In this document: piece by piece, positions 16,959 to 54,573 of the stretch
Layout of the letters: the number at the start of each line of letters is the position of its first letter
How positions within the stretch are numbered: position 1 is the first letter of the stretch
Source: Planosporangium mesophilum
Lineage (GTDB): Bacteria > Actinomycetota > Actinomycetes > Mycobacteriales > Micromonosporaceae
Length of the DNA: 64,000 nucleotides
Assembly (NCBI RefSeq): GCF_016863255.1
Contig: NZ_BOON01000008.1
Location: 1-64,000 of the forward strand
Reading direction: 5' to 3'
Made by a program: the position numbers and the translations under genes
The notes under the pieces: model-generated
Seen by the model: the letters and a program-made list of their open reading frames with translations, nothing else
The model's database searches: none
Told to the model about the DNA's origin: nothing

Positions 16959-18013
16959 CCGTTCGTGAAGCGGCGGCGCCGGTCGGGGCGTGGACCCGGG
17001 CCGAGCGCGCGCGCCTGTCCGGCATCGTGGCGACCGTCGTGCTCCTCAACGTCGCCGGCTGGTCGCTGTACCTGTACTACAGTACGAGCCTCGCGGCGGC
17101 CAGTGCGTTCGCCGGGGCCGGTACCCTCGCCTACGTCCTCGGTATCCGGCACGCGTTCGACGCCGACCACATCGCCGCGATCGACGACACCACCCGGCTC
17201 ATGCTGCTGCGCGGTCGCCGGCCGGTCGGGGTCGGGTTCTTCTTCGCGATGGGGCACTCCGCCGTCGTCGTCGTCCTCGCCCTCATCGTGGCGTTCGCCG
17301 CGCGCAGCCTCAACGTCGAGCCGTTCCAGCATGCCGGCGCCCTCCTCGCGACCGTCGTCGCGGTCGTGTTCCTGCTGGTGGTCGGCGTCCTCAACGCCAC
17401 CGTCCTGGCGAGCATGGTGAAGCTGTGGCGGGGCCTGAGCCGGGGCGAGGTGGACCAGGCCGCGATCGACCGGGAACTGGTCAACCGGGGCCTGATGAAC
17501 CGGATGCTCGGCGGCCGGATACGCGGCCTCATCCGCTCCAGTTGGCACATGTTCCCGGTCGGGCTGCTGTTCGGCCTCGGCCTGGAGACCGCGAGCGAGG
17601 TGACGCTGCTGTCGCTGCAGGCGGCCACCGCCTCCCAGGGTGCGGTACCCGCGCTGGCCGTGCTCACCCTCCCGCTGCTGTTCGCCGCCGGGATGTCCGC
17701 GATGGACACCGCCGACTCGCTGCTGATGACCCGGGCGTACTCGTGGGCGTACCGTCACCCGGCCCGGCGGCTGTACTACAACCTCGCCACCACCGGGATG
17801 ACCGTCGTCGTCGCGCTGTTCGTCGCGTCGGTCTACCTGGCCGGGCTGATCACCGAGGTCACGCCGGTCACCGGCCCGCTGGCCTCCTACGCGGCAATCG
17901 CCGACCACTTCGAACTGCTCGGCTACGTCATCGTCGGCGCGTTCGTGCTGGCCTGGGGCGGCGCGGTCGCCGCCTGGAAGCTGGGCCGCTTCGACCAGAG
18001 GTACACGTCGTGA
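16955..18013 (+). CDS. NiCoT-family cobalt/nickel permease
   Basis: A 352-residue membrane protein with about eight hydrophobic segments and the NiCoT signature GIRHAFDADHIAAIDDTTR (HAFDADH metal-selectivity motif in TM2), plus FFAMGHSAVVV and LFGLGLETASEVTLL. The family imports Co2+ and/or Ni2+. Position inside the B12 operon and control by the cobalamin riboswitch favour cobalt. The ATG at 16955 overlaps the ferredoxin stop (ATGA), and the end overlaps cobH by four bases (GTGA). Confidence 0.9.
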   Translation: MTVREAAAPVGAWTRAERARLSGIVATVVLLNVAGWSLYLYYSTSLAAASAFAGAGTLAYVLGIRHAFDADHIAAIDDTTRLMLLRGRRPVGVGFFFAMGHSAVVVVLALIVAFAARSLNVEPFQHAGALLATVVAVVFLLVVGVLNATVLASMVKLWRGLSRGEVDQAAIDRELVNRGLMNRMLGGRIRGLIRSSWHMFPVGLLFGLGLETASEVTLLSLQAATASQGAVPALAVLTLPLLFAAGMSAMDTADSLLMTRAYSWAYRHPARRLYYNLATTGMTVVVALFVASVYLAGLITEVTPVTGPLASYAAIADHFELLGYVIVGAFVLAWGGAVAAWKLGRFDQRYTS

Positions 18014-18624: not shown

Positions 18625-19475
18625 CCACCCCTTTGCTGATCGCCGGGCACGGTACCGCCGACTCCGCCGGTGCCGAGCAGTTCCGCCAGTTCGTCAAGCG
18701 GGTCGACGGCCTGCTCGACGCGCCGGTCGCCGGCGGTTTCATCGAGCTGTCCAACCCGCCGATCGCTTCGGCCGTCGACGGGTTGGTCGGGACAGGGGCC
18801 CGTCGGGTCGCCGCCGTGCCGCTGATGCTGGTCGCCGCCGGGCACGCCAAGGGTGACATCCCGGCGTCACTGGCCCGGGAGCGCCAGCGACACATCGGAC
18901 TGTCCTTCGTGTACGGTCGTCCGCTCGGCCCGCACCCGACGATCCTCGCCCTGCTCCGCGAGCGGCTGGCGGAGATCTCGCCGGACCCGGACACCATGGT
19001 GCTGCTGGTCGGCCGGGGCTCCACGGACCCCGACGCCAACGCCGAGGTGGCGCGGGCCGCCCGGCTACTGGCCGAAACGAGACCGGGCGCCGGGGTGGAG
19101 TACGCCTTCGTGTCGCTGGCGGAGCCGGGGGTGGCAGCCGGTCTCGAGCGGTGCCGCCTGCTCGGCGCCGGGCGGGTCGCGGTGCTGCCGTACTTCCTGT
19201 TCACCGGCGTACTGCCGCGTCGCGTCGCGGCCCAGGCCGCCGACTGGTCTTCGTCGTCGGGTGTGCCGGTTGACACCGCCGAGGTGATCGGCGACTGCGA
19301 CGGGCTGGCGTCGCTGGTCGTGGAGCGGTACGACGAGGCACTGCGCGGAGAGGCACGGGCCAACTGCGACGCCTGCCTGTACCGGATCGCCCTGCCCGGG
19401 CACGAGCATCGGGTCGGGGCACCGCAGATGCCGCATGATCATCCGCACGATCACGCGCACCCGCACCCGCACTGA
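18621..19475 (+). CDS. cbiX: CbiX-type sirohydrochlorin chelatase with His-rich tail
   Basis: A 284-residue protein with two related chelatase half-domains: LLIAGHGTADSAG with IELSNPPIASAVD, and VLLVGRGSTDPDANAEV with a matching downstream half. The last ~25 residues carry a His-rich tail (HEHRVGAPQMPHDHPHDHAH and further HP pairs), probably metal-binding. CbiX inserts cobalt into sirohydrochlorin at the start of the early-cobalt route; related proteins insert iron for siroheme. The second half-domain has GRGST instead of GHGST, so one metal-site His is missing and catalysis may rest on the first half. It is the last gene of the operon. Confidence 0.85.
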   Translation: MTTPLLIAGHGTADSAGAEQFRQFVKRVDGLLDAPVAGGFIELSNPPIASAVDGLVGTGARRVAAVPLMLVAAGHAKGDIPASLARERQRHIGLSFVYGRPLGPHPTILALLRERLAEISPDPDTMVLLVGRGSTDPDANAEVARAARLLAETRPGAGVEYAFVSLAEPGVAAGLERCRLLGAGRVAVLPYFLFTGVLPRRVAAQAADWSSSSGVPVDTAEVIGDCDGLASLVVERYDEALRGEARANCDACLYRIALPGHEHRVGAPQMPHDHPHDHAHPHPH

Positions 19476-19566
19476 GTCGACCGGCCACTCTCTGCTCGCA
19501 TGGACGGATACGGCAAAGCCTACGAAGTGGACCGAACCAGGTGGATGGCGATGCCATGATCAGGGC

Positions 19567-20409
19567 ATGCATGTCCGCGTTGCCACGGAGGCCGGTTCAT
19601 CCGACACGCCGAACGAGGATCGGGTTGTCGTGGGGACCGACCTTCTGGTCGTCGTCGACGGTGCCACCGCTCGTACCGACACCGGATGCGTTCACGGCAC
19701 AGCCTGGTACTCGGATCACCTCGCCGATGCCGTACTACGGTATCGCCATCTCGGACCTTCTGCGGCTCTTGCCGCTGGCATCCGCCGGACCGCGCAGCGC
19801 CATAGCCGTACGTGCGATCTGGACCACCCAGGTTCGCCGTCGGGGTCGGTCGGCATCGTCCAGGTCGACGGCGACCAGCTGCGTTATCTCGTCCTTGGTG
19901 ACGTGACGGTCGTCATCGACACGGGAGCCGGCGAGTTTGTCGTCGTTGACGACCGGGTGAGTCGGATTGCGTCCACGGAACGAGCAGCTGCCGACGAACT
20001 ACCGATCGGCTCGAAGGGAAAGAAGGCCGCGCTGGCCCGGATGAAGCGCGCCGAGCTTGCCGCGAGAAACCGGGCGGGTGGGTACTGGATTGCGGCCGGC
20101 GATCCCGCCGTCGTCGATCAGGCGTTGACCGGTGCGGTTCCGCTGGCGGGAGTGCGCCGCGGTGCGATTCTGACTGACGGGGCGGCGCGGGCCGTCAGTA
20201 CCTTTGCGCTGTACGACTGGGCCGGTGTTCTCGATCTCCTGGCGACTGCGGGGCCACACGCCCTGGTCAACGAGGTAAGGGCCGCTGAGTCACAGGACGT
20301 GCGGGGCACTCGTTGGCCACGGAACAAGACATCCGATGACGCGACGGTGGCCTACTTCGCCGGCTTTCCGAACGAGGCACGCCGCTCGGTCGGTGACGGA
20401 GGTGCGTGA
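19567..20409 (+). CDS. PP2C-family (PPM) protein phosphatase-like protein
   Basis: A 280-residue soluble protein. The metal-binding motifs of PPM phosphatases are recognisable: NEDR near residue 16, VVVDGAT near residue 31, ILTDGAAR near residue 200 and SDDATVAYF near residue 259. It is short and divergent, with a Lys/Arg-rich insert (KGKKAALARMKRAELAARNR). Its function is probably Ser/Thr dephosphorylation, but no cognate kinase lies nearby. Codon use is visibly less GC-biased than in the B12 genes, suggesting transfer. The ATG at 19567 has only a weak GGG before it. The next gene is 71 bases downstream. Confidence 0.75.
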   Translation: MHVRVATEAGSSDTPNEDRVVVGTDLLVVVDGATARTDTGCVHGTAWYSDHLADAVLRYRHLGPSAALAAGIRRTAQRHSRTCDLDHPGSPSGSVGIVQVDGDQLRYLVLGDVTVVIDTGAGEFVVVDDRVSRIASTERAAADELPIGSKGKKAALARMKRAELAARNRAGGYWIAAGDPAVVDQALTGAVPLAGVRRGAILTDGAARAVSTFALYDWAGVLDLLATAGPHALVNEVRAAESQDVRGTRWPRNKTSDDATVAYFAGFPNEARRSVGDGGA

Positions 20410-20480
20410 GCTGCCTATAGTGGCGATCATCTGTACGTGATGGTGCCGTGCCGTCATCCGAACCCGATGAGGCCGAAAGC

Positions 20481-21665
20481 ATGATTCTGCTCAGAATCTT
20501 CCTGGGCCGGTTCCTTCGTTGGTCCGTTCGGCACACCTGGTCGCTCGTCATCGGCATCGTCTTGCTGGTTGTCGAGGTGGTCGGCCTTGCCGGGTCCTCA
20601 GTGTTTTTCCGGGTGGCGGCCCTGCTGTCCGTCGGCTATGGCGTCTTCGAGATCGTGCGCAAAGCAACCGACGACTGGCAGAGGCTGCAGCGTATCTACG
20701 AACGTGAGCGGCCGGATGGGCCGGTGGTCGGCCAGTACGAAGCTCCATACGACGGATGGGAAGAGATCGAGCTGAATTCGTGGCGGGCGGTGACCGACGC
20801 GCGCATCAACGCTCGCCTCATCCATGGTGAAAAAATCGCGATCGAGCGCACTCCCGAGCTCTGGCTGCCCAGCGGAAGGTATGAGGAGCTACGAAAGCTG
20901 CTCAGGGTCCGACTTGACGCCGATGAGAAGAAGATAAGGCTGTCCCGGGACTTCCTGTCCGACAGTGCGACGATTTCGCTCCAGCAGACGGTTTACTCGG
21001 CATTTCTCGTCACCAACCGTCTTGGTCTTTACAAACTCAGGGAGCGCGGAAGCGAGCGGGAGATACTTGATTCCGAGGAGGTTCTGCTCCGTGCAGGCAG
21101 GATTCCGACGTTCGATCGAAGCAGGTGCTCCAACCACCTTGGCGTCGACGTGCTCGCGATCTCGTCGGATGGCCGGATTCTCGTAACCAGGCAGAGCGCC
21201 GGCAACCAGGTGAGTCGCGGGCTACTCGCGTCGTCCGGTAGTGGTTCGGTGGACTGGGATGATCTCCATGAGCAGGATGAACTGGTCACCCTGCTTGCTC
21301 GAGCGATGCGCCGCGAGATGTGTGAGGAGTTGGGCCTGCATAGTACGGAGACGCCGGAGTTGGGTTCAATTCTTCCCTTGGGATACGCCCGTTTCAGCCA
21401 CCTCGGTGGGAAGCCTCAATTCTTCGGGGTGGCCAGACTTGACGCGGCGAACGGGCGAGTGCAGGGAATCGAAAGCCGCTACATCGATGATCATTTGACC
21501 ATCCACTTCGATCCGGGGCGCGGTGTCGACGAACTTGTTCAGAAGATCGACAAGTTCGAGTCGAATCATCGCAACGAGATGTCGTTTCCGCTCCACGTCA
21601 ACTTCCAGATGATCCGGCGTTGGCTGGCCACCGACGATCAGGCCGGCGCCTGGTTGGGTCTATAG
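20481..21665 (+). CDS. Membrane-anchored protein with Nudix-like C-terminal domain
   Basis: A 394-residue protein. Residues 1-60 hold two adjacent membrane helices (around LVIGIVLLVVEVVGLAG and VAALLSVGYGVFEIV). A 120-residue unassigned middle follows, then a region from about residue 225 containing DVLAISSDGRILVTRQ and, near residues 278-286, REMCEELGL. The latter is the catalytic second half of a Nudix box (REUxEExGU), although the upstream GX5E part is not conserved. The ATG at 20481 follows GAGG by about nine bases; a GTG at 20448 is the alternative. A TATAGT hexamer at 20415-20420 could give it its own promoter. It contains rare codons (ATA, AGA) and looks acquired. The substrate is unknown. 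Confidence 0.65.
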   Translation: MILLRIFLGRFLRWSVRHTWSLVIGIVLLVVEVVGLAGSSVFFRVAALLSVGYGVFEIVRKATDDWQRLQRIYERERPDGPVVGQYEAPYDGWEEIELNSWRAVTDARINARLIHGEKIAIERTPELWLPSGRYEELRKLLRVRLDADEKKIRLSRDFLSDSATISLQQTVYSAFLVTNRLGLYKLRERGSEREILDSEEVLLRAGRIPTFDRSRCSNHLGVDVLAISSDGRILVTRQSAGNQVSRGLLASSGSGSVDWDDLHEQDELVTLLARAMRREMCEELGLHSTETPELGSILPLGYARFSHLGGKPQFFGVARLDAANGRVQGIESRYIDDHLTIHFDPGRGVDELVQKIDKFESNHRNEMSFPLHVNFQMIRRWLATDDQAGAWLGL

Positions 21666-21716
21666 CGGCCAGTGGGCAGGATGAGGCGTCCCGCACTCAG
21701 AGCTCCTGACGGATGG

Positions 21717-21935
21717 TCATTTGCTGAGGCGGCGGTAGCAGATGATGGCGCAGGCCAGCGAGGCGGTCGGCGCCCTGTAGTTCGGCCAGCAATAGCGCGT
21801 GCAGTTGCTGCCACACTCCGGCCCGGTTCCATTCCTCCAGACGCCGCCAGCAGGTCATCCCGGACCCGAACCCCAACTCCCGGGTAGGAGCGCCCACGGG
21901 ATCCCGGGGTGCCGCACGAACAAGATTCCGCACAG
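21717..21935 (-). pseudogene. Internally deleted, frameshifted IS5-family transposase remnant
   Basis: Three pieces of an IS5-type (DUF4096/DDE) transposase are readable on the minus strand. LCGILFVRHPGIPW lies at 21894-21935. After a frame change, ELGFGSGMTCWRRLEEWNR and VWQQLHALLLAELQGADRL occupy about 21760-21880. After a second frame change, SLACAIICYRRLSK and a stop lie at 21717-21761. The last piece is the normal C-terminus of such transposases, so the catalytic centre has been deleted. Short imperfect inverted sequences at 21686-21698 and 21948-21957 might be terminal-repeat relics. Confidence 0.75.
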
Positions 21936-21984
21936 CGGTTGGGGCGGGAGTGGACGCTCACGCCCTAGGCGTTGTGAACGGTTG

Positions 21985-22215
21985 GCGGAGACCCCTCCGG
22001 TCGTTCGGGGATGCGGTTCCGCTCGGGGGACCAGGTGAGTCGGCGGTGCGGTCGGGGCGTAGCGTTGCGTGAAAGAGGCATTACTCTGGGTGCGCTGATG
22101 TCGTTGGCCGTCCTACCCGGATCGCTGGCGATGCCGCCGTGGCGTGCGTCCCGTGCGTGCTCTACCTGTAGGCGTTGGTCCTCAAGTTCTGTGCGTGATC
22201 GGCCTGTTCGCTTAC
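21985..22215 (+). promoter_or_regulatory. Possible divergent c-di-AMP (ydaO-type) riboswitch leader
   Basis: The 330 bases before the Pro-rich protein gene hold no credible ORF but contain blocks resembling the ydaO aptamer. There is a cgggggacc followed by ggtgagtcgg near 22024-22042, a cctacccggatcgct block near 22112-22126, and gctctacctgtaggcgtt near 22159-22176, which resembles the family block gctaacctcgtaggcgt. Actinomycete members of this class usually precede secreted cell-wall proteins, which fits the downstream gene. Spacing and several conserved bases differ, so this is tentative. Confidence 0.3.
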
Positions 22216-22266
22216 TCGGCGACTAGCTTCGCGGTCCCTGCGGCTAGCGTCGGAAGGAACAGGAAG

Positions 22267-24063
22267 ATGAACATTCAACCGCCTGACCGACCACGACGAC
22301 TCACGAGGTCGCGTCGCGAGAAGGTCCAAAGGGCGGTGATGGGCACGATTACCGCGCTGGCGGTGGCGTTCGCCGTTGCCGGCGCGGAGTTGAGTAACCC
22401 GAACCTGTCCGCGGACGCGGCATCCCACCACCCGAACCTCGTCACGCTGGCGAACGGCCGGGCCGGTCCGCTCGAGGCTGGTCTGCCCCTGTCCTACGCG
22501 CAGCAGCCGGTATCGGTGCCGGTCCCGGGCGTCTACCCCGTCGACAACGTGGTCTATCACGACAGCGTGTGGACCGTCAGCCTGGACCAGATGTGGGTGG
22601 TCTCCGCCCAGCAGTTCGTCACTTTCGTAAAGATCACGAACCTGACAACCGCTCCGCGGACGTTCACCTGTACCCGTACCGACTATCTGCGGATCGTCAG
22701 TGGTCAGGTGATCAACCCGGTCAACACCTACTGCACCACGTTCCCGCGTAAGCAGGTCGTCATTCCGGGGCGTGGCTACTTCCGGGACTTCGCCGTATTT
22801 CCCGTTGCTCCTCCGGCCAACGCGAAGATCACCGTTGTCTGGCAGCCGGCGACGGCCCCTCCGGCGACCGTCTCGAACATCACCATCAGCGCACCGGCTC
22901 AGGTCTTCACCTCGAATCAGGTAACGATAATCGGGTCCCGGATCAACAATCTGCTCACGGTGCAGGGTGCGCCGAGGCCGTTGGACCCGGTCGGTCCGGT
23001 GCTGCCGGCGCCGTCGCTGCCGCCTCGTTCTCCTTCGCCTCCGCCGGCCACGGCGACGACGAGTCCGCCTCGTTCTCCTTCGCCTACGGCGACGACGACG
23101 AGTCCGCCTCGTTCTCCTTCGTCTCCGCCGCCTGCGGCGACGACGAGTCCCGCCGCGCCGCCCCCACCGCCGCGGACGACGACAAGTCCGCCTCCACCGC
23201 GGACCACCACGAGTCCTCCTCCGCCACCGACGACTACGACGACCACGAGTCCGCCTGGGGCGACGACGAGTCCGGCCGCGCCACCGCCGCCTCCACCGCT
23301 GACCACCACGAGTCCTCCTCCACCGCGGACGACTACGACGACAAGTCCGCCGCCTCCGCCGACGACCACGAGTCAGCCTGGGGCGACGACGACTCCGGCC
23401 GCGCCTCCGCCGACCGCCGCGAGTCCTCCTCCGCCGCCGCCGACGACGGGTCCGGCCGTGCCTCCGCCGACCGCCACGAGTCCTCCTCCTCCGCCGCCGC
23501 CGACGACGGGTCCGGCCGTGCCTCCGCCGCCTCCGCCGACGACGGGTCCGGCCGTGCCGCCTCCGCCGCCTCCGCCGACGACGGGTCCGGCCGTGCCGCC
23601 GCCTCCGCCGACGACGGGTGAAGTTCCGGGTGCGCCGGTTGCTCCGGCGCAGCCGACCGCACCCGGCGAGCAGCCAGGGATGCCGCCGGGCGCTCCGGCT
23701 CAGCCGACTCCGGGTGAACAGCAGCCTGGTATGCCGGGCGCTCCGGCGCAGCCGACCGCACCCGGCGAGCAGCCAGGGATCCCGCCGGGTGCTCCGGCGC
23801 AGCCTACGCCGGGTGAGCAGCCGGGTGGTCCGGCTCAGCCGACGCCGGGCGAGCAGCAGCCTGGTATGCCTGGTGGTCCGGCGCAGCCCGCTCCCGGTGA
23901 GCAGCCGGGTGGTCCGGCTCAGCCGACTCCGGGCGAGCAGCAGCATGCGCCTGAGATGCCGGGTGGCCCGGCCCAGCCCGCTCCCGGTGAGCAGCAGCAG
24001 GGTGGACCGGCCCAGCCCGCTCCGGGCGAGCAGCAGCAGGCGCCCGTTCAGCCGCAGCAGTGA
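22267..24063 (+). CDS. Secreted or surface Pro/Thr/Ser-rich repeat protein
   Basis: A 598-residue protein. An N-terminal basic segment and hydrophobic stretch (VMGTITALAVAFAVAGAEL, residues ~21-40) form a long signal peptide or anchor. Residues ~50-235 are a compact, probably beta-rich globular domain with no family I recognise (VVYHDSVWTVSLDQMWVVS; two Cys in FTCTRTDYL and VNTYCTTF could pair). Residues ~240-455 are a PP-TTT-SPP low-complexity arm, and ~455-598 hold nine copies of a P-x-P-G-E-Q-containing repeat. There is no LPXTG motif. The ATG at 22267 follows GGAAGGA. It probably extends through or attaches to the cell envelope. Confidence 0.75.
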   Translation: MNIQPPDRPRRLTRSRREKVQRAVMGTITALAVAFAVAGAELSNPNLSADAASHHPNLVTLANGRAGPLEAGLPLSYAQQPVSVPVPGVYPVDNVVYHDSVWTVSLDQMWVVSAQQFVTFVKITNLTTAPRTFTCTRTDYLRIVSGQVINPVNTYCTTFPRKQVVIPGRGYFRDFAVFPVAPPANAKITVVWQPATAPPATVSNITISAPAQVFTSNQVTIIGSRINNLLTVQGAPRPLDPVGPVLPAPSLPPRSPSPPPATATTSPPRSPSPTATTTSPPRSPSSPPPAATTSPAAPPPPPRTTTSPPPPRTTTSPPPPPTTTTTTSPPGATTSPAAPPPPPPLTTTSPPPPRTTTTTSPPPPPTTTSQPGATTTPAAPPPTAASPPPPPPTTGPAVPPPTATSPPPPPPPTTGPAVPPPPPPTTGPAVPPPPPPPTTGPAVPPPPPTTGEVPGAPVAPAQPTAPGEQPGMPPGAPAQPTPGEQQPGMPGAPAQPTAPGEQPGIPPGAPAQPTPGEQPGGPAQPTPGEQQPGMPGGPAQPAPGEQPGGPAQPTPGEQQHAPEMPGGPAQPAPGEQQQGGPAQPAPGEQQQAPVQPQQ

Positions 24064-24241
24064 GCCAGGAACCCGCGGCGTAGGGGACGCGACCCCTACG
24101 CCGCGGTCCTCGAGGAGGCCCGCTGTAGCGGCACCCGAATAAACAGTTAACAAACCTTGACATTAATCGTCGCATCGGGTTGCATCGATGTCCACGCGGT
24201 ACGGGGTGGCCCCGGCGGGCCGCGTCCCGAAGGAGTTGTGC

Positions 24242-25729
24242 ATGCGCGGATATCGGTATGTGCTGGCCGCCAGCACGGTCGCGGCAACGGTCACCGGCGC
24301 GGTCGTCCTGATCGTCGGACCGGTCGCGGCGGCCACGAACACGATCGCCAACCCCGGCTTCGAGTCCGGGTTGGCCGGCTGGTCCTGTCCGGCCACGGCC
24401 ACCGCCGTCACCGGCCACGCTCACAGCGGTAGCTACGCACTGCAGGGGGCGGCGAGCAGTAACGACAACGCCCAGTGCACGCAGACCGTCGCCGTCGCGC
24501 CGAACACCACGTACACCCTGTCGGCGTACGTCAACGGCGCCTACGTCTACCTCGGCGCGACCGGCACCGGCGGGGCCGACCCGAGCACCTGGACCCCGGG
24601 TACGGGCGGTGGCTACCAGCAGTTGTCGGTCACGTTCACCACCGGCGCCGGTACCCGCAGCGTCACCGTGTACCTGCACGGCTGGTACGGCCAGGGCAGT
24701 TACTACGCCGACGACGTCACCATGCCCGGCCCCGGCGGCACCCCGCCACCGCCAGCGACGCCGACGCCGACGCCGAGCACGTCACCGACGACGGCGCCGC
24801 CCCCACCCCCGCCTCCACCGGGCGGCGGACCGCTGCCGAGGCACGAGCTCACCGGGTACTGGCAGAACTTCAACAACGGCGCCGCCGTGCAGCGGCTGCG
24901 CGACGTCGCGGGCGACTACGACCTGATCGCGGTGGCCTTCGCCGACACCGACCCGAGCGGGCCGGGCAAGGTCACCTTCAACGTCGACTCCGGGCTCTCC
25001 TCGGCGCTGGGCGCGTACACCAACGCCGACCTCAAGACGGACGTCGCCACCCTCCACTCGCGCGGCAAGAAGGTGGTCATCTCGGTCGGCGGCCAGAACG
25101 GCACCGTCTCGGTGGGCGACCCGGCCGCCGCCAACAACTTCGCCACCAGCGTCTACAACCTCATGCAGGCGTACGGCTTCGACGGCGTCGACATCGACCT
25201 GGAGAACGGGGTGAACCCGGACCAGATGGCCTCCGCGCTGCGGACCCTGCGGAGCCGGGCCGGTTCCGGCCTCGTCATCACGATGGCGCCGGAGACGATC
25301 TTCATGCAGTCCGCGTCGTCGACCTACCTCTCGCTGGCCCTCAAGATCAAGGACATTCTGACCGTCGTACACACCCAGTACTACAACTCCGGGTCGATGA
25401 ACGGCTGCGACGGCAACGTGTACTCGCAGGGCACGGTCGACTTCATCACGGCGCAGGCCTGTATCGCCATCCAGGCCGGGCTGCGCCCGGATCAGGTGGC
25501 GATCGGCCTGCCCGCTTCGTCCAGAGCTGCCGGGAGTGGGTACGTGGACCCATCGGTGGTGAACAACGCTCTAGACTGCCTCGCCAGGGGGACCGGGTGC
25601 GGTCGCTTCAGGCCGGCCACGCCCTGGCCGGACATCCGCGGTGCGATGACCTGGTCGACCAACTGGGATACATCCGCCGGAGGTAACTGGTCACGTAGCG
25701 TGAAGGGACACCTGGGCACACTTCCGTAG
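24242..25729 (+). CDS. Secreted GH18 chitinase with N-terminal carbohydrate-binding module
   Basis: A 495-residue protein. A signal peptide covers residues ~1-31 (cleavage after VAAA-T). A CenC-like beta-sandwich carbohydrate-binding module follows (NPGFESGLAGWSCP to YYADDVTMPGP), then a Pro/Thr linker and a GH18 catalytic domain from about residue 205 (ELTGYWQNFNNG). The GH18 catalytic motif DGVDIDLE is complete at residues ~314-321 with Glu as acid/base. It hydrolyses chitin outside the cell. TTGACA at 24157-24162 may be a -35 box; I see no clear DasR site. A GGAG site precedes the ATG at 24242. A strong hairpin follows the gene. Confidence 0.92.
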   Translation: MRGYRYVLAASTVAATVTGAVVLIVGPVAAATNTIANPGFESGLAGWSCPATATAVTGHAHSGSYALQGAASSNDNAQCTQTVAVAPNTTYTLSAYVNGAYVYLGATGTGGADPSTWTPGTGGGYQQLSVTFTTGAGTRSVTVYLHGWYGQGSYYADDVTMPGPGGTPPPPATPTPTPSTSPTTAPPPPPPPPGGGPLPRHELTGYWQNFNNGAAVQRLRDVAGDYDLIAVAFADTDPSGPGKVTFNVDSGLSSALGAYTNADLKTDVATLHSRGKKVVISVGGQNGTVSVGDPAAANNFATSVYNLMQAYGFDGVDIDLENGVNPDQMASALRTLRSRAGSGLVITMAPETIFMQSASSTYLSLALKIKDILTVVHTQYYNSGSMNGCDGNVYSQGTVDFITAQACIAIQAGLRPDQVAIGLPASSRAAGSGYVDPSVVNNALDCLARGTGCGRFRPATPWPDIRGAMTWSTNWDTSAGGNWSRSVKGHLGTLP

Positions 25730-50298: not shown

Positions 50299-51270
50299 CT
50301 ACACGGCCTGGGAGAGCGAGACGCCGAACAGGCCGTCCGGGTCGGTCCACCACCGCCGGAGCGCGAACCCGGCCGACTCCAGCTCCCGCGCCAACCCCTC
50401 GCGGCGGAACTTGGCCGAGATCTCGGTCCGTACCTCCTCACCCTCGTCGAACTCCACGACGAGGTCCAGGCCGGCGATCGGTACCCGCATCGCCTCCCGG
50501 GCCCGCAGTCGCATCTCGATCCACTCGTCGGCCGGATTCCACACCGCCACGTGGTCGAACGCCTCCGGATCGAACGAAGCGCCCAGCTCCCGGTTGACCA
50601 CCCGCAGCACGTTGCGGTTGAACTCGGCGGTCACGCCGGCCGCGTCGTCGTACGCGGGCAGCAGGATCCGCTCGTCCTTGACCAGGTCGCTGCCGAGCAG
50701 CAGCCACTCGCCGGGTTCGAGGACCGCGCGCAGGGCGGTCAGGAACTCCCGGCGCTCGGCGGGCAGCAGGTTGCCGATGGTGCCGCCGAGGAACGCGACG
50801 AGCCGGGTGGCGCCGCCGGGCAGTACGCGCAGGTGCCGGGTGAAGTCGCCGACGATGCCCCGTACCGAGAGGTTCGGGTACTCCGCCGTCAGCGCGGCCA
50901 CCGCGTCGCGCAGCGCCGCCGCCGAGACGTCCAACGGGACGAAGGTGCCGAGGGAGCCGTGCCGGGACAGGGCGTCCAGCAGCAGGCGGGTCTTGTCCGA
51001 CGAGCCGGAACCCAGTTCGACGAGGGTCTTCGCCACGGTGACGTCCGCGATCTCGGTGGCGTACGCGGTGAGGACGGCCCGCTCGGCGCGGGTCGGGTAG
51101 TACTCCGGCAGGCGGGTGATCTCCTCGAAGAGTTCGCTGCCCCGCGCGTCGTAGAACCACTTGGGCGGTAGCCACTTCGCGGGGGCGGTCAGCCCGGCCC
51201 GGACGTCGTCGCGCAGCGACCGCGCCAGGTCGGACTCGTCGAGGTGGATCTCCAGTTCGGGTACGGTCAC
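50299..51270 (-). CDS. egtD: L-histidine N-alpha-methyltransferase EgtD
   Basis: A 323-residue SAM-dependent enzyme with the family N-terminus (LRDDVRAGLTAPAKWLPPKW, FYDARGSELFEEITRLPEYY), SAM loop VELGSGSSDKTRLLL and IGNLLPAERREFL. It trimethylates histidine to hercynine, the first committed step of ergothioneine synthesis. The GTG at 51270 overlaps the egtC stop (GTGA). Length is normal. Confidence 0.95.
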   Translation of the reverse strand: MTVPELEIHLDESDLARSLRDDVRAGLTAPAKWLPPKWFYDARGSELFEEITRLPEYYPTRAERAVLTAYATEIADVTVAKTLVELGSGSSDKTRLLLDALSRHGSLGTFVPLDVSAAALRDAVAALTAEYPNLSVRGIVGDFTRHLRVLPGGATRLVAFLGGTIGNLLPAERREFLTALRAVLEPGEWLLLGSDLVKDERILLPAYDDAAGVTAEFNRNVLRVVNRELGASFDPEAFDHVAVWNPADEWIEMRLRAREAMRVPIAGLDLVVEFDEGEEVRTEISAKFRREGLARELESAGFALRRWWTDPDGLFGVSLSQAV

Positions 51271-52016
51271 TGCCTGCCCCAATCGGTGATGTCGACGGCG
51301 TCGGGGGTGGCGACGACGAGCTTCCCGTCGGGTACCGGCGCCCAAGCGGCGTCGTCGTCGAGTGGTTCGGAGCTGACCACGACGGATCCTTCGGTCCGCC
51401 GCACGGACAGGGCGTGGCCGGCGGTGGTGGCGGCGATCCGGGCACCGTCGGTGAGCAGCAGGTTGAGGCGCGATCCCGGCGCGGCTGCGGCCGTCTCGGC
51501 GACCGTCTCCGCCAGCGCTTCGGGCAGCGGCGCGCCGGCCCGCAGCCGGGCCCGTACCAGCGCCCACAGCAGCGCGGCGTCGCTGGGTGCGTCGAGGGTC
51601 AGCAGGTCGCCGGTCGGCAGCCGCCCGGCGAGCTTGGCCATCGAGTCGGGCCAGTCCGTGACGGCGCCGTTGTGGCTGAACAGCCAGGGCCCGTCGGTGA
51701 ACGGGGCGACCGCGGTCTCGGTCACCGGCATCCCGGGCGTGGCGTTGCGTACCGCCGCGAGGACGGCGCGCGAACGCGCGCCGGCCGCGACCGGGGCCAG
51801 GTTGCCGTCCGCCCACATCGGACAGTTGCGCCGGTACCGCAGCGGGGTCGCCGCGGCCTGCGGGTACCAGCCGAAGCCGTACCCGTCGGCGTTGATCGTG
51901 CCGCCGCCGCGCATGTCCTTGGGCGCGTAGGACTGGCGCAGCAGCGAGTGCGGCGGCTCGGTCAGCAGCCGGGCCAGCGGCACCGGCGGCCCGAGGTAGG
52001 CCAGGTGACGGCACAT
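51267..52016 (-). CDS. egtC: Ergothioneine gamma-glutamyl hydrolase EgtC
   Basis: A 249-residue class II (Ntn) amidotransferase-like enzyme. Cys2 after the initiator Met (MCRHLAYLGPP) is the nucleophile, and SHNGAVTDWPDSM and SYAPKDMRGGGTINADGYGF are conserved. It removes the gamma-glutamyl group from gamma-glutamyl-hercynylcysteine sulfoxide. The ATG overlaps the egtB stop. Confidence 0.95.
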   Translation of the reverse strand: MCRHLAYLGPPVPLARLLTEPPHSLLRQSYAPKDMRGGGTINADGYGFGWYPQAAATPLRYRRNCPMWADGNLAPVAAGARSRAVLAAVRNATPGMPVTETAVAPFTDGPWLFSHNGAVTDWPDSMAKLAGRLPTGDLLTLDAPSDAALLWALVRARLRAGAPLPEALAETVAETAAAAPGSRLNLLLTDGARIAATTAGHALSVRRTEGSVVVSSEPLDDDAAWAPVPDGKLVVATPDAVDITDWGRQ

Positions 52017-53332
52017 CAGCCCAGCTCCGACAGGTGGGCGTCGCGGGCGCAGCGGAGACCGCTGAAGATCTGTCGGCGGATCGGGTAGTCCCAGTTGCGG
52101 AACGTGCCCCGGCAGGCCGCCGCGTCGGTACCGAACGAGCCGCCGCGCAGCACCTTGTACTTCGGCCCGAAAAACACCTCCGAGTACTCCCGGTAGGGGA
52201 ACGCGGCGAAGCCCGGATAGCCGGCGAAGTCGGAGGCGGTCCACTCCCACACGTCGCCGATGAGCTGGTGTACGCCGGCCGGCGACGCCCCGGCCGGGTA
52301 CGCCCCCGCGACCGCCGGGGCGAGGTGGCGCTGGCCCAGGTTGGCGTGGTGCTCCTGCGGGTCCTCGTCCCCCCACGGGTACCGGCGGGAGCGCCCGGTC
52401 GCCGGGTCGAAGCGGGCGGCCTTCTCCCATTCGGCCTCGGTCGGCAGCCGCTTGCCGGCCCACGCCGCGTACGCCTGCGCCTCGTGGAAGCAGACGTGCA
52501 CGACCGGCTCGTCGGGGTTCACGGCCTCGGTCCGGCCGAAGCGGGTGTACGCCCACCAGTCGCGGTCGCGCAGCCAGTGCATCGGCGCGGTCAGGTCGGC
52601 CCGTACCCGGTGCTCCCAGCCCTCCGGCGTCCACCATCGGGGCTGGTCGTACCCGCCGTCGGCGATGAACCGGGCGTACTCGCCGTTGGTGACGCACGCG
52701 GCGTCCATGAAGAACGCGGGTACGTCGACGGTGTGCGCGGGCCGCTCGTTGTCCAGCGCCCAGGCCTCGGTGGAGGTACCCATGGTGAACGGGCCACCGG
52801 GGATGAGCACCTCATCGCCGACCCGTACCGCGGCATCCGGCGGGGACGGTGCCGTCAGTACGGGAGCGCCGACCCGCAGTTGATGGGTGGCGAGCATGGT
52901 CTCGTCGTGCTGCTGCTCGTGCTGCACGATCATCCCGAACGCGAACGCGTCCGTGGTGAGCCGGCGGCCCTCCAACGGCACCGCGTCGAGCAGGTCGAGC
53001 ACCTTGTCGCGTACGGTCCGCACGTAACCGCGGGCCTCCACCGGTCCGAGCAGCGGCAACTGCGGCCGGTCGCGGCGGGGGTGCTGGAACGCGTCGTAGA
53101 GCTCGTCGATGTCCCGGCGTACCGGGTCACGCCCGCCGACGTCGCGTACCAGCCACAGCTCCTCCTGGTTGCCGACGTGTGCCAGGTCCCACACCAGCGG
53201 GGACATCAGTGGTGAGTGCTGCCGGACCAGGTCGTCGTCGTCCACGGCGTCGGTGAGCAGCGCGGTACGTGCCCGGGTGCGCTCCAGTTCGACCGCGACC
53301 CGATCGCGCAGCCGCTCGGTCTCATCGGTCAT
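52016..53332 (-). CDS. egtB: Hercynine sulfoxide synthase EgtB
   Basis: A 438-residue enzyme. An N-terminal DinB-like domain has the iron-binding pattern HEQQHDETML near residue 138 and an earlier His in LVWDLAHVGNQEE. The C-terminal formylglycine-generating-like (FGE-sulfatase) domain contains PGGPFTMGTSTEAWALDNER, VNGDVWEWTASDF-like (IGDVWEWTASDF) and LRGGSFGTDAAACRGTFRN. It joins hercynine to gamma-glutamylcysteine with O2. The stop and start overlap both neighbours. Confidence 0.95.
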   Translation of the reverse strand: MTDETERLRDRVAVELERTRARTALLTDAVDDDDLVRQHSPLMSPLVWDLAHVGNQEELWLVRDVGGRDPVRRDIDELYDAFQHPRRDRPQLPLLGPVEARGYVRTVRDKVLDLLDAVPLEGRRLTTDAFAFGMIVQHEQQHDETMLATHQLRVGAPVLTAPSPPDAAVRVGDEVLIPGGPFTMGTSTEAWALDNERPAHTVDVPAFFMDAACVTNGEYARFIADGGYDQPRWWTPEGWEHRVRADLTAPMHWLRDRDWWAYTRFGRTEAVNPDEPVVHVCFHEAQAYAAWAGKRLPTEAEWEKAARFDPATGRSRRYPWGDEDPQEHHANLGQRHLAPAVAGAYPAGASPAGVHQLIGDVWEWTASDFAGYPGFAAFPYREYSEVFFGPKYKVLRGGSFGTDAAACRGTFRNWDYPIRRQIFSGLRCARDAHLSELG

Positions 53333-54573
53333 GCGAAATCCTTCCGTGATCCCAGGGGGAGGCCGCCGGCGAGTCGGCGGTCGAGGACGTCAAGCACGGT
53401 GGCCTGCGCGGTCACCGACAGGTCGGTCCCGCTGAGCGCCCGCGCCGTCACGTCGGCCACCCGGGCGGCGGCCGCCGCGAACGCGGGGTCGGCGAGGCCC
53501 AGCCGGGCGGCGTCCCGCCAGCGGCCTTCGGTCGGCTCGCACGCCGCCCGCGCCTCGTCCAGGGCGTGGGCGTCACCCAGCAGCGCGGCCACGACCGCGA
53601 CCGGGGCGAACCACTCGCCGCCCGGCTGGGTGTCGAGGAACCGCAGCTCCAGGTACCCGCGGGGGCGTACCGGCGGGAACAGGGTGCCGAGGTGGTAGTC
53701 CAGGTCGTCGGTGGTCGGCGGGCGGGGGAGCGCGCCGGCGATCCAGTCGGCGAACGTGACGCCGGCCGGTACGTCCCAGTTCGGGCCGAGACCGCGTACG
53801 CACAGCAGCGGCGCTGCGAGGGCGTACCGCGCCCAGGCCAGCGCGGGATCGGCGGCGGCGCCGACCGGACCGGTGCGCCGCAGGTCCATGCCGAGCCACG
53901 TCCGCATTCGGGCCGAAGCCCAGCCGCTGTCGCGGCCGGCGTACCGGCGGGCCGTGGCGAAGAGGGCGACCAGGGCGGGACCGAGCGCGTGCACCGCCGC
54001 CCAGCGGGCCGCGAGCCCGGACGGTTCGCCGGCGTCGACGCAGACCTGCAGCCCGGCGGTACTGCACATCATGGTGCGCCCGTGCGGGCCGTCCGCGTCG
54101 AACGCCCGCTGCATCGCGGTGTACCGAGGGGTTTCGAGCAACCGGCGCGGCGGGCGGTGCTGGTCGATCCCGGAATCGCCGAGCCTGAGGCCGGCCGCGC
54201 GCAGCCGCTCGGCCAGGTGGGCGATGTCGCCGTCGACCGTGTCGCGCAGCACGGTCAGCGAGGTGGCCGGGGCCGAGGAGATCTCGACCTGGCCGCCCGG
54301 CTCGAGGGTCACCAGGCCGCCGCCGGGTAACGCCTGGTGGGAGCCGTCGGGAACAAGGGTCGGTGGGGCGTGAGGGCCGAGGGCCCGGCGCAGCGACGCC
54401 GGGTCGAGCGGAGCCTCGGGATCGTCGCGGGCGTGCACGGTCCACTCCAGCTCCGCGCCGACGAGTGCCGGCGGCCCGGTCTTGAAGCAGATCGAGGCGA
54501 TGTACCCCTCGGCCTCGGTCACCTCGTGCAGGATCGTCGCGCCGTTGGTGCGACGCTGCGGAACGCTCGCCAT
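53329..54573 (-). CDS. egtA: Glutamate-cysteine ligase EgtA
   Basis: A 414-residue GCS2-like ligase with VGAELEWTVHA, GGLVTLEPGGQVEISSAPA, MMCSTAGLQVCVDAG and YLELRFLDTQPGGEW. It makes gamma-glutamylcysteine, the EgtB co-substrate. A GGGGAG site precedes the ATG at 54573; the ORF extends to 54636 without a better start. It is the first gene of egtABCD; its end overlaps egtB by four bases. The 211-base gap upstream (54574-54784) holds no recognised element. Confidence 0.93.
   Translation of the reverse strand: MASVPQRRTNGATILHEVTEAEGYIASICFKTGPPALVGAELEWTVHARDDPEAPLDPASLRRALGPHAPPTLVPDGSHQALPGGGLVTLEPGGQVEISSAPATSLTVLRDTVDGDIAHLAERLRAAGLRLGDSGIDQHRPPRRLLETPRYTAMQRAFDADGPHGRTMMCSTAGLQVCVDAGEPSGLAARWAAVHALGPALVALFATARRYAGRDSGWASARMRTWLGMDLRRTGPVGAAADPALAWARYALAAPLLCVRGLGPNWDVPAGVTFADWIAGALPRPPTTDDLDYHLGTLFPPVRPRGYLELRFLDTQPGGEWFAPVAVVAALLGDAHALDEARAACEPTEGRWRDAARLGLADPAFAAAAARVADVTARALSGTDLSVTAQATVLDVLDRRLAGGLPLGSRKDFA

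Follow-up and report, generated by a model that had tools for sequence, protein, structure and literature searches.

The window analysed here is a stretch of 64,000 nucleotides (nt) from Planosporangium mesophilum (genome G000, 6.6 Mb; contig NZ_BOON01000008.1, positions 1 to 64,000 of the forward strand), in which a gene for a PP2C-type phosphatase is followed on the same strand, after a gap of 38 bp, by a gene for a predicted membrane-anchored Nudix protein. The gap between the PP2C gene and the gene upstream of it is 91 bp. An earlier reading of the letters alone (the sequence-only reading) had described two same-strand genes with less GC-biased codons, lying between a B12 operon and an insertion sequence (IS) remnant, which is what was found, and had proposed that they form a transferred signalling or defence module. 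The explanation that we favour, by no wide measure, is a different one: the second protein would belong, as a divergent member, to an unnamed family of membrane-tethered nucleotide-sugar pyrophosphatases resembling human NUDT22, the PP2C would be its unrelated neighbour, and both genes would have been transferred into a variable chromosomal slot. The features of the two genes are the following:

19567..20409, plus strand: PP2C-type (PPM) phosphatase gene, 280 amino acids (aa), open frame
20448..21665, plus strand: gene for the putative membrane-anchored NUDT22-like Nudix protein, 405 aa from GTG, or 394 aa from the ATG at 20481
20538..20690, plus strand: predicted membrane hairpin of two helices, modelled at residues 31-44 and 52-81
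20750..21100 (approximate), plus strand: middle domain, which with the Nudix domain matches most of the NUDT22 chain
21126..21605, plus strand: Nudix domain, with GSG (264-266), D272, REMCEE (289-294), G312 and R315

Two hydrophobic stretches were detected at the N-terminus of the second protein (19-residue windows starting at residues 26 and 45), in line with the two membrane helices of the sequence-only reading. Because basic residues are found before the first helix of the hairpin and after the second, both of its ends, and with them the catalytic part, would face the cytoplasm. At 20481 lies an alternative in-frame start, an ATG, preceded by a ribosome-site-like GAGG at a distance of 8 nt. 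The full Nudix box is GX5EX7REUXEEXGU, and it does not appear here, as a longer, variable stretch precedes the RExxEE motif; the residue 8 positions before its Arg is T in 13, D in 13, E in eight, N in one and Q in one of 36 aligned family members, and T in the window copy, so the earlier description of REMCEELGL as a half-box was accurate. Residues R289, E290, E293, E294, G264-G266, D272, G312 and R315 are invariant in 36/36 members, the RExxEE metal-binding residues of the window copy included. In the middle domain, the family shows a stretch rich in aromatic residues that closes with SN or TN, and its Nudix domain has the pattern GSG...D...RExxEE...G..RW. With Pfam NUDIX, the window protein scored 19.8 bits, under the gathering cut-off of 21.1, and 21 of the 36 members matched at E <= 0.1 (best E 0.00079); with NCBIfam, the window protein gave no match at E <= 1.

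The fold was predicted with AlphaFold2 for the window protein (predicted local distance difference test, pLDDT, 84.0; predicted template modelling score, pTM, 0.82) and for a Georgenia relative (pLDDT 88.4, pTM 0.87), and both models were compared with the PDB by Foldseek. The six top matches of both were chains of human NUDT22, with E-values of 6.8e-12 to 1.7e-10 for the window model and 2.2e-12 to 9.5e-11 for the Georgenia model, over 291-331 columns that span the middle and Nudix domains (target template modelling score 0.59-0.68); the next PDB structure followed at E 7.3e-6 and 7.6e-6, respectively. The window model matched 73 PDB chains at E <= 0.001, and the best 50 were almost all Nudix proteins or isopentenyl-diphosphate isomerases. 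The Nudix fold proposed for the second protein is thus borne out by the predicted model, which keeps the RExxEE residues intact, and a membrane-anchored hydrolase of nucleotide-linked compounds, as the sequence-only reading had it, was a reasonable guess. As the six NUDT22 chains rank at the top across both domains, the middle domain, previously unassigned, is most likely an N-terminal domain of the NUDT22 type.

Human NUDT22 (PDB 5lor, 5lou, 5lf9) is a UDP-glucose/galactose hydrolase; in a passage of PMC10101856 it is reported to convert UDP-glucose to UMP and glucose-1-phosphate, and in passages of PMC5688067 it is described as lacking a conventional Nudix box and as a significant outlier among human Nudix proteins. 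Like it, the bacterial proteins join an N-terminal domain and a Nudix domain in one chain and have an unconventional Nudix box with a long insert, and the printed alignments agree at LG(V), the Asp at D272, E290, E294 and LG.AR. The bacterial proteins differ from NUDT22 in their additional anchor of two membrane helices, and identity in the structural alignments is only 14-20%. In the literature, no bacterial relatives were named in the titles and abstract openings of the listed matches for NUDT22 with bacteria or prokaryotes. Text searches gave no match for membrane-anchored, membrane-bound or transmembrane Nudix proteins, nor for the combination of Nudix, UDP-glucose, membrane, actinobacteria and pyrophosphatase.

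Relatives of the second protein were found in 19 of 300 genomes of the same taxonomic family (its own included; one judged false), in 9 of 394 of the class (its own included; three being short membrane-helix matches) and in 4 of 396 of the phylum (queried with the window protein; its own included; the three others were already among the matches of the class search). The false ones are G024/L037, which was judged by reading to be a PAS/SpoIIE-like frame, and G302, G457 and G528, whose matches cover 54-64 positions at the membrane helices. A scan of the contig collection with the window protein as single query gave no relative; an alignment query on the same collection gave 63 named loci from 23 genus-level taxa (counted from titles), including a Ruminococcaceae metagenome-assembled genome and another labelled Microgenomates. 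The patterns of the alignment query favour a 'GSGSLEP' subfamily, so relatives nearer the 'GSGSVDWDD' type of the window may be missed; no relative was found in phage records or in viral contigs, the latter scanned with the same pattern bias. The only plasmid record matching the Nudix protein is a Monoglobus (Clostridia) plasmid, whose relative is annotated 'hypothetical protein'. The family is patchy in actinomycetes and reaches Clostridia, and two N-terminal hydrophobic stretches are present in 43 of the 46 named proteins with a called length of at least 385 aa. It is easily overlooked, because the window protein falls under the Pfam NUDIX cut-off and lacks an NCBIfam match, and the clostridial member is 'hypothetical'. 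In the tree, the window copy did not group with the members from its own taxonomic family, in a weakly supported placement for which long-branch joins were warned of.

The neighbourhood of the family gene was followed in 80 loci (17 plus the 63 named ones; six of the 17 duplicate Micromonospora loci, leaving 74 distinct), with at least 5 kb on both sides in 72 of them. As candidate partners across genera, the larger neighbour clusters were set aside, being genus-bound except for broad families, namely response regulators and a sugar-epimerase cluster; the latter led to galE. A galE gene scoring over the curated cut-off adjoins the family gene in three Brevibacterium loci, in Promicromonospora and in Georgenia, where both genes lie on one strand (L126:7572-9778) and overlap by 4 bases as judged from the called starts. 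In Cryobacterium, galE lies about 6 kb from the family gene, in a region that also holds GDP-mannose-dehydratase-like and O-antigen-ligase-type genes, and other glycan genes are found near some further family copies. One galE over the cut-off was present in each of the four genomes checked. By tblastn with three of these galE proteins, galE was detected in 6 of the 80 family loci versus none of 20 PP2C loci, which come from one other family and are a weak control.

The reading that fits the window copy best is a NUDT22-like nucleotide-sugar pyrophosphatase or sensor that is tethered to the membrane and faces the cytoplasm. In the mechanism proposed, the two-helix hairpin would tether a cytoplasmic unit, made of an N-terminal alpha/beta domain and the Nudix domain, to the membrane on its inner side. 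RExxEE would hold a metal, and the family would most likely split a UDP-sugar (UDP-glucose and UDP-galactose are the best candidates) into UMP and a sugar-1-phosphate, and would in this way trim the nucleotide-sugar pool at the site of envelope glycan synthesis.

Several observations weigh against this reading. The root-mean-square deviation in Foldseek was 5-7 angstrom over both domains, and the alignments behind the window and Georgenia models share most rows. By sequence, support for NUDT22 is weak: in hmmsearch, the family profile aligned with NUDT22 over more positions (97-109) than with NUDT17 (70) or MTH1-like proteins (21-24), which speaks for the link, but at E-values of 0.97 and 1, which is noise level, with a best single-stretch i-Evalue of 11-12; a match to MDA5, judged to be chance, scored better than NUDT22, and a second profile (A1) did not list NUDT22. 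Pairwise hhalign with a piece of NUDT22 gave a probability of 75 and a P-value of 2.5e-5, again weakly in favour; the P-value is no fair test, since the piece had been picked from the profile hit. The window copy is only 19-27% identical to other members, sits on a very long branch (3.04), and alone carries F at W316 and Q at E324 (W and E in 35/36); being so divergent and having both substitutions, its activity is uncertain. As for galE, 74 of the 80 loci gave no hit and the link is confined to a few genera, of which Georgenia, Cryobacterium and Brevibacterium form one supported clade (Promicromonospora falls outside the tree sampling), so it does not represent several independent events. In Amycolatopsis and Micromonospora, the family gene lies amid ordinary-looking chromosomal genes in shared order (by eye from translations). 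For these reasons, the galE neighbourhood is only suggestive of a UDP-hexose substrate.

The same substitutions bear on an alternative in which the window copy is a catalytically dead sensor, binding a nucleotide sugar or another nucleoside diphosphate without cleaving it. The loss of two near-invariant residues in this copy alone and its long branch fit such a protein; all RExxEE residues, GSG, D272, G312 and R315 are nevertheless retained, and we regard full loss of catalysis as unlikely. Within the pyrophosphatase reading, the window copy may still bind without fast cleavage, given that the near-invariant Glu at 324 is Gln.

The association between the two genes was assayed in both directions. 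With a PP2C profile built from 30 sequences and hits accepted up to E 1, no PP2C was detected in the fetched flanks of the 80 family loci, and tblastn agreed; with the family profile, no relative of the second protein was detected in 22 PP2C loci, made up of 20 from the 29 best relatives that had been fetched and two from 31 plasmid records. The adjacency that a single transferred PP2C and Nudix unit was expected to show in other genomes was therefore absent from the loci examined, and the usual neighbour of the PP2C is another gene. A signalling or defence module, transferred as a unit, in which the PP2C removes phosphate from the Nudix protein or from a regulator of it, would agree with the common strand, the 38-bp gap, the equally atypical codons and the position of both genes inside a slot that differs between congeners. 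Against it stand the missing pairing, the different gene that precedes the PP2C in 16 of the 22 loci and an open reading frame (ORF) of 639 aa in the same slot with the same codon bias, so that such a module is very improbable. Passages found in the literature on PP2C with Nudix describe other systems. Hence, the two genes are probably not one system, we lean towards the PP2C being an unrelated neighbour, and there is no support here for control of the second protein by the PP2C, for its phosphorylation or for a defence role.

The PP2C gene is intact, as had been stated, and its acidic positions are all kept: NED (D18), DGAT (D31), LGDV (D112), TDGA (D204) and SDD (D257/D258), which we take to be the PPM metal motifs, show at least 90% conservation each in an alignment of 30 sequences that includes the window protein. 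In Pfam PP2C_2, the protein scored 19.5 bits, under the cut-off of 24, and two relatives scored 23.7 and 23.9. This subfamily is common, with relatives in 230 of the 300 family-level genomes (best 63% identity) and matches in 31 plasmid records. The gene found directly upstream in the 16 loci encodes a sigma-70 region-4-like helix-turn-helix protein; two of these loci, L149 and L150, are partial or broken. Plasmids pVMKU (L171:8154-9816) and pRL1 (L172:8079-10050) are among the 16, and further examples of the pair are L131:3537-5191 and L139:6993-8641. The C-terminal part of the helix-turn-helix protein is unassigned, and its gene was matched in 53 of the 300 genomes, in some weakly. The window PP2C is 50-53% identical to those of the plasmid pairs ('Sigma factor-like helix-turn-helix' with 'protein phosphatase 2C domain'; the gene upstream on pRL1 is annotated 'hypothetical'). 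In contrast to that pair, the window has no helix-turn-helix gene directly upstream, and no match to the partner was found in its genome (8 of 14 first-look candidates scored). As most of the PP2C loci examined have this partner and no match to it was obtained in the genome, the window PP2C looks like a solitary member of a helix-turn-helix/PP2C pair, one that actinomycete plasmids carry as well. The pair was not described in the titles and abstract openings of the listed literature matches for PP2C with helix-turn-helix on plasmids. On pVMKU, the gene after the PP2C is annotated as Abi family (L171:10071-10787), and on pRL1 a Pycsar effector and a RES NAD+ phosphorylase are annotated about 7-8 kb from the pair (L172:101-586 and 16982-17629).

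The putative defence role was further assayed with PADLOC, in which neither the PP2C nor the second protein had a match. Nine of the ten neighbouring window proteins scanned had none either, and the remaining one, a response regulator, gave three matches over its N-terminal part. Among the 36 family members, three models weakly matched 3, 2 and 1 (best E 0.0038), and the one match placed on a protein (L103) covers residues 20-114, at the membrane end. The defence role thus found no backing. A more specific version is that the protein resembles Cap16, with transmembrane helices and a Nudix domain that senses a signal and oligomerises so as to damage the inner membrane. A passage of PMC10419184 describes Cap16 as a transmembrane effector with a NUDIX domain of the cyclic-oligonucleotide-based antiphage signalling system (CBASS), whose toxicity survives mutation of that domain. 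By description, the broad layout is the same, and the weakly matching models include '2TM' effectors, with 3/36 (best E 0.0038) and 1/36 (E 0.035) members. However, besides the lack of a match for the window protein, no CD-NTase model was found in the twelve window proteins scanned, and the family gene sits among ordinary-looking chromosomal neighbours of shared order in Amycolatopsis and Micromonospora, as judged by eye, which makes a Cap16-like killer quite improbable.

The locus was compared with those of three congeners, G022, G053 and G073. The features in and around the slot are the following:

19477..25720, strand not assigned: species-variable slot, from the B12 operon to the response-regulator region, by comparison with congeners
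21690..21960 (approximate limits), minus strand: IS4/5-family transposase remnant, downstream of the second gene
20393..20421, plus strand: promoter-like match near the end of the PP2C gene, 9/12 positions, near chance level

The B12 operon is common to G022 and G053 at 84-86% identity until about position 19476, and the G022 alignment picks up again at 25721 with 82% identity; by blastn against G022, the left and right flanks are 85.6% and 81.7% identical, with no match in between. For G073 the assembly is incomplete, and its contig breaks off at window position 18727. In place of the window genes, the slot holds WXG-like and aminotransferase-like genes in G022 and a glycosidase-like and a WXG-like gene in G053 (named by eye from translations). 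The second protein had no match in any of the three congeners; PP2C relatives of 42-45% identity occur at other sites in G022 and G053, and G000 itself holds another, weaker PP2C match. As far as can be judged from four genomes, vertical inheritance therefore does not account for the pair in this genus.

Codon usage was compared with that of 44 other window genes. The z-scores of the codon adaptation index (CAI) were -7.5 for the PP2C gene and -8.1 for the second gene, and those of third-position GC content (GC3) were -11.7 and -11.4, all of them inflated because the 44 reference genes were selected by a coding model favouring high GC3. The 639-aa ORF at 22144-24063 was equally deviant (CAI z -7.6, GC3 z -10.9), so the shared bias does not tie the PP2C to the second gene. 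The atypical codons, the lack of a Nudix match in the three congeners and the species-variable slot content support the foreign origin suggested before; both genes would have arrived by transfer into the variable slot, the PP2C as a stray member of a pair that is found on plasmids too.

Another alternative is a factor for conjugal immunity, comparable to Pif of the Streptomyces element pSAM2, that an integrated element would have left behind together with a plasmid-type PP2C. According to a passage of PMC3218068, Nudix genes are frequent on the integrative elements of actinomycetes, and Pif has a role in conjugal immunity; with Pif and other element-borne proteins, the window protein shares by description a Nudix domain in an actinomycete and a possible mobile-element setting, and the plasmid matches of the PP2C subfamily point the same way. 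However, the slot yielded no recognisable integrase or translocase (three ORFs of the region and the remnant were run against Pfam, and the others read by eye), family members lie among genus-specific neighbours, and the sole plasmid record matching the Nudix protein is a Clostridia replicon, leaving this as the least probable of the explanations considered.

On the minus strand, what is left of the transposase is an 86-aa stretch bounded by stops, for which Pfam gave a 25-position match to PF13340 (IS4/5 family) of 28.6 bits (E 1.6e-6), below the cut-off of 34.3 bits; position 21935, the end of the stretch described earlier, falls within the remnant. No tRNA was found in the window and no repeat pair flanking the slot stood out. 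The promoter scan was at chance (one found versus 0.5 expected, standard deviation 0.6), and so was the terminator scan. The 639-aa ORF carries a long tail of repeats in which Pro, Thr, Ser, Gln and Gly abound, has no Pfam match, and is followed by a GH18 glycosidase with a CBM_4_9 domain (24188-25729), whose CAI of 0.673 is much nearer that of the other genes. Elsewhere in the window, four minus-strand genes at 50299-54573 resemble an ergothioneine (EgtABCD) cluster, by eye from translations.

Beyond the window copy, we tentatively propose, at somewhat less than even confidence, that the unnamed family consists of NUDT22-type UDP-glucose/UDP-galactose hydrolases that act at the inner membrane to tune envelope glycans, in some genera beside galE, and that it is the bacterial counterpart, perhaps the origin, of human NUDT22. 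If so, a bacterial family with the two-domain fold of NUDT22 would provide genetically tractable relatives for a human outlier, and the sugars of the cell envelope would have a control point in a membrane-bound enzyme that breaks down UDP-sugars.

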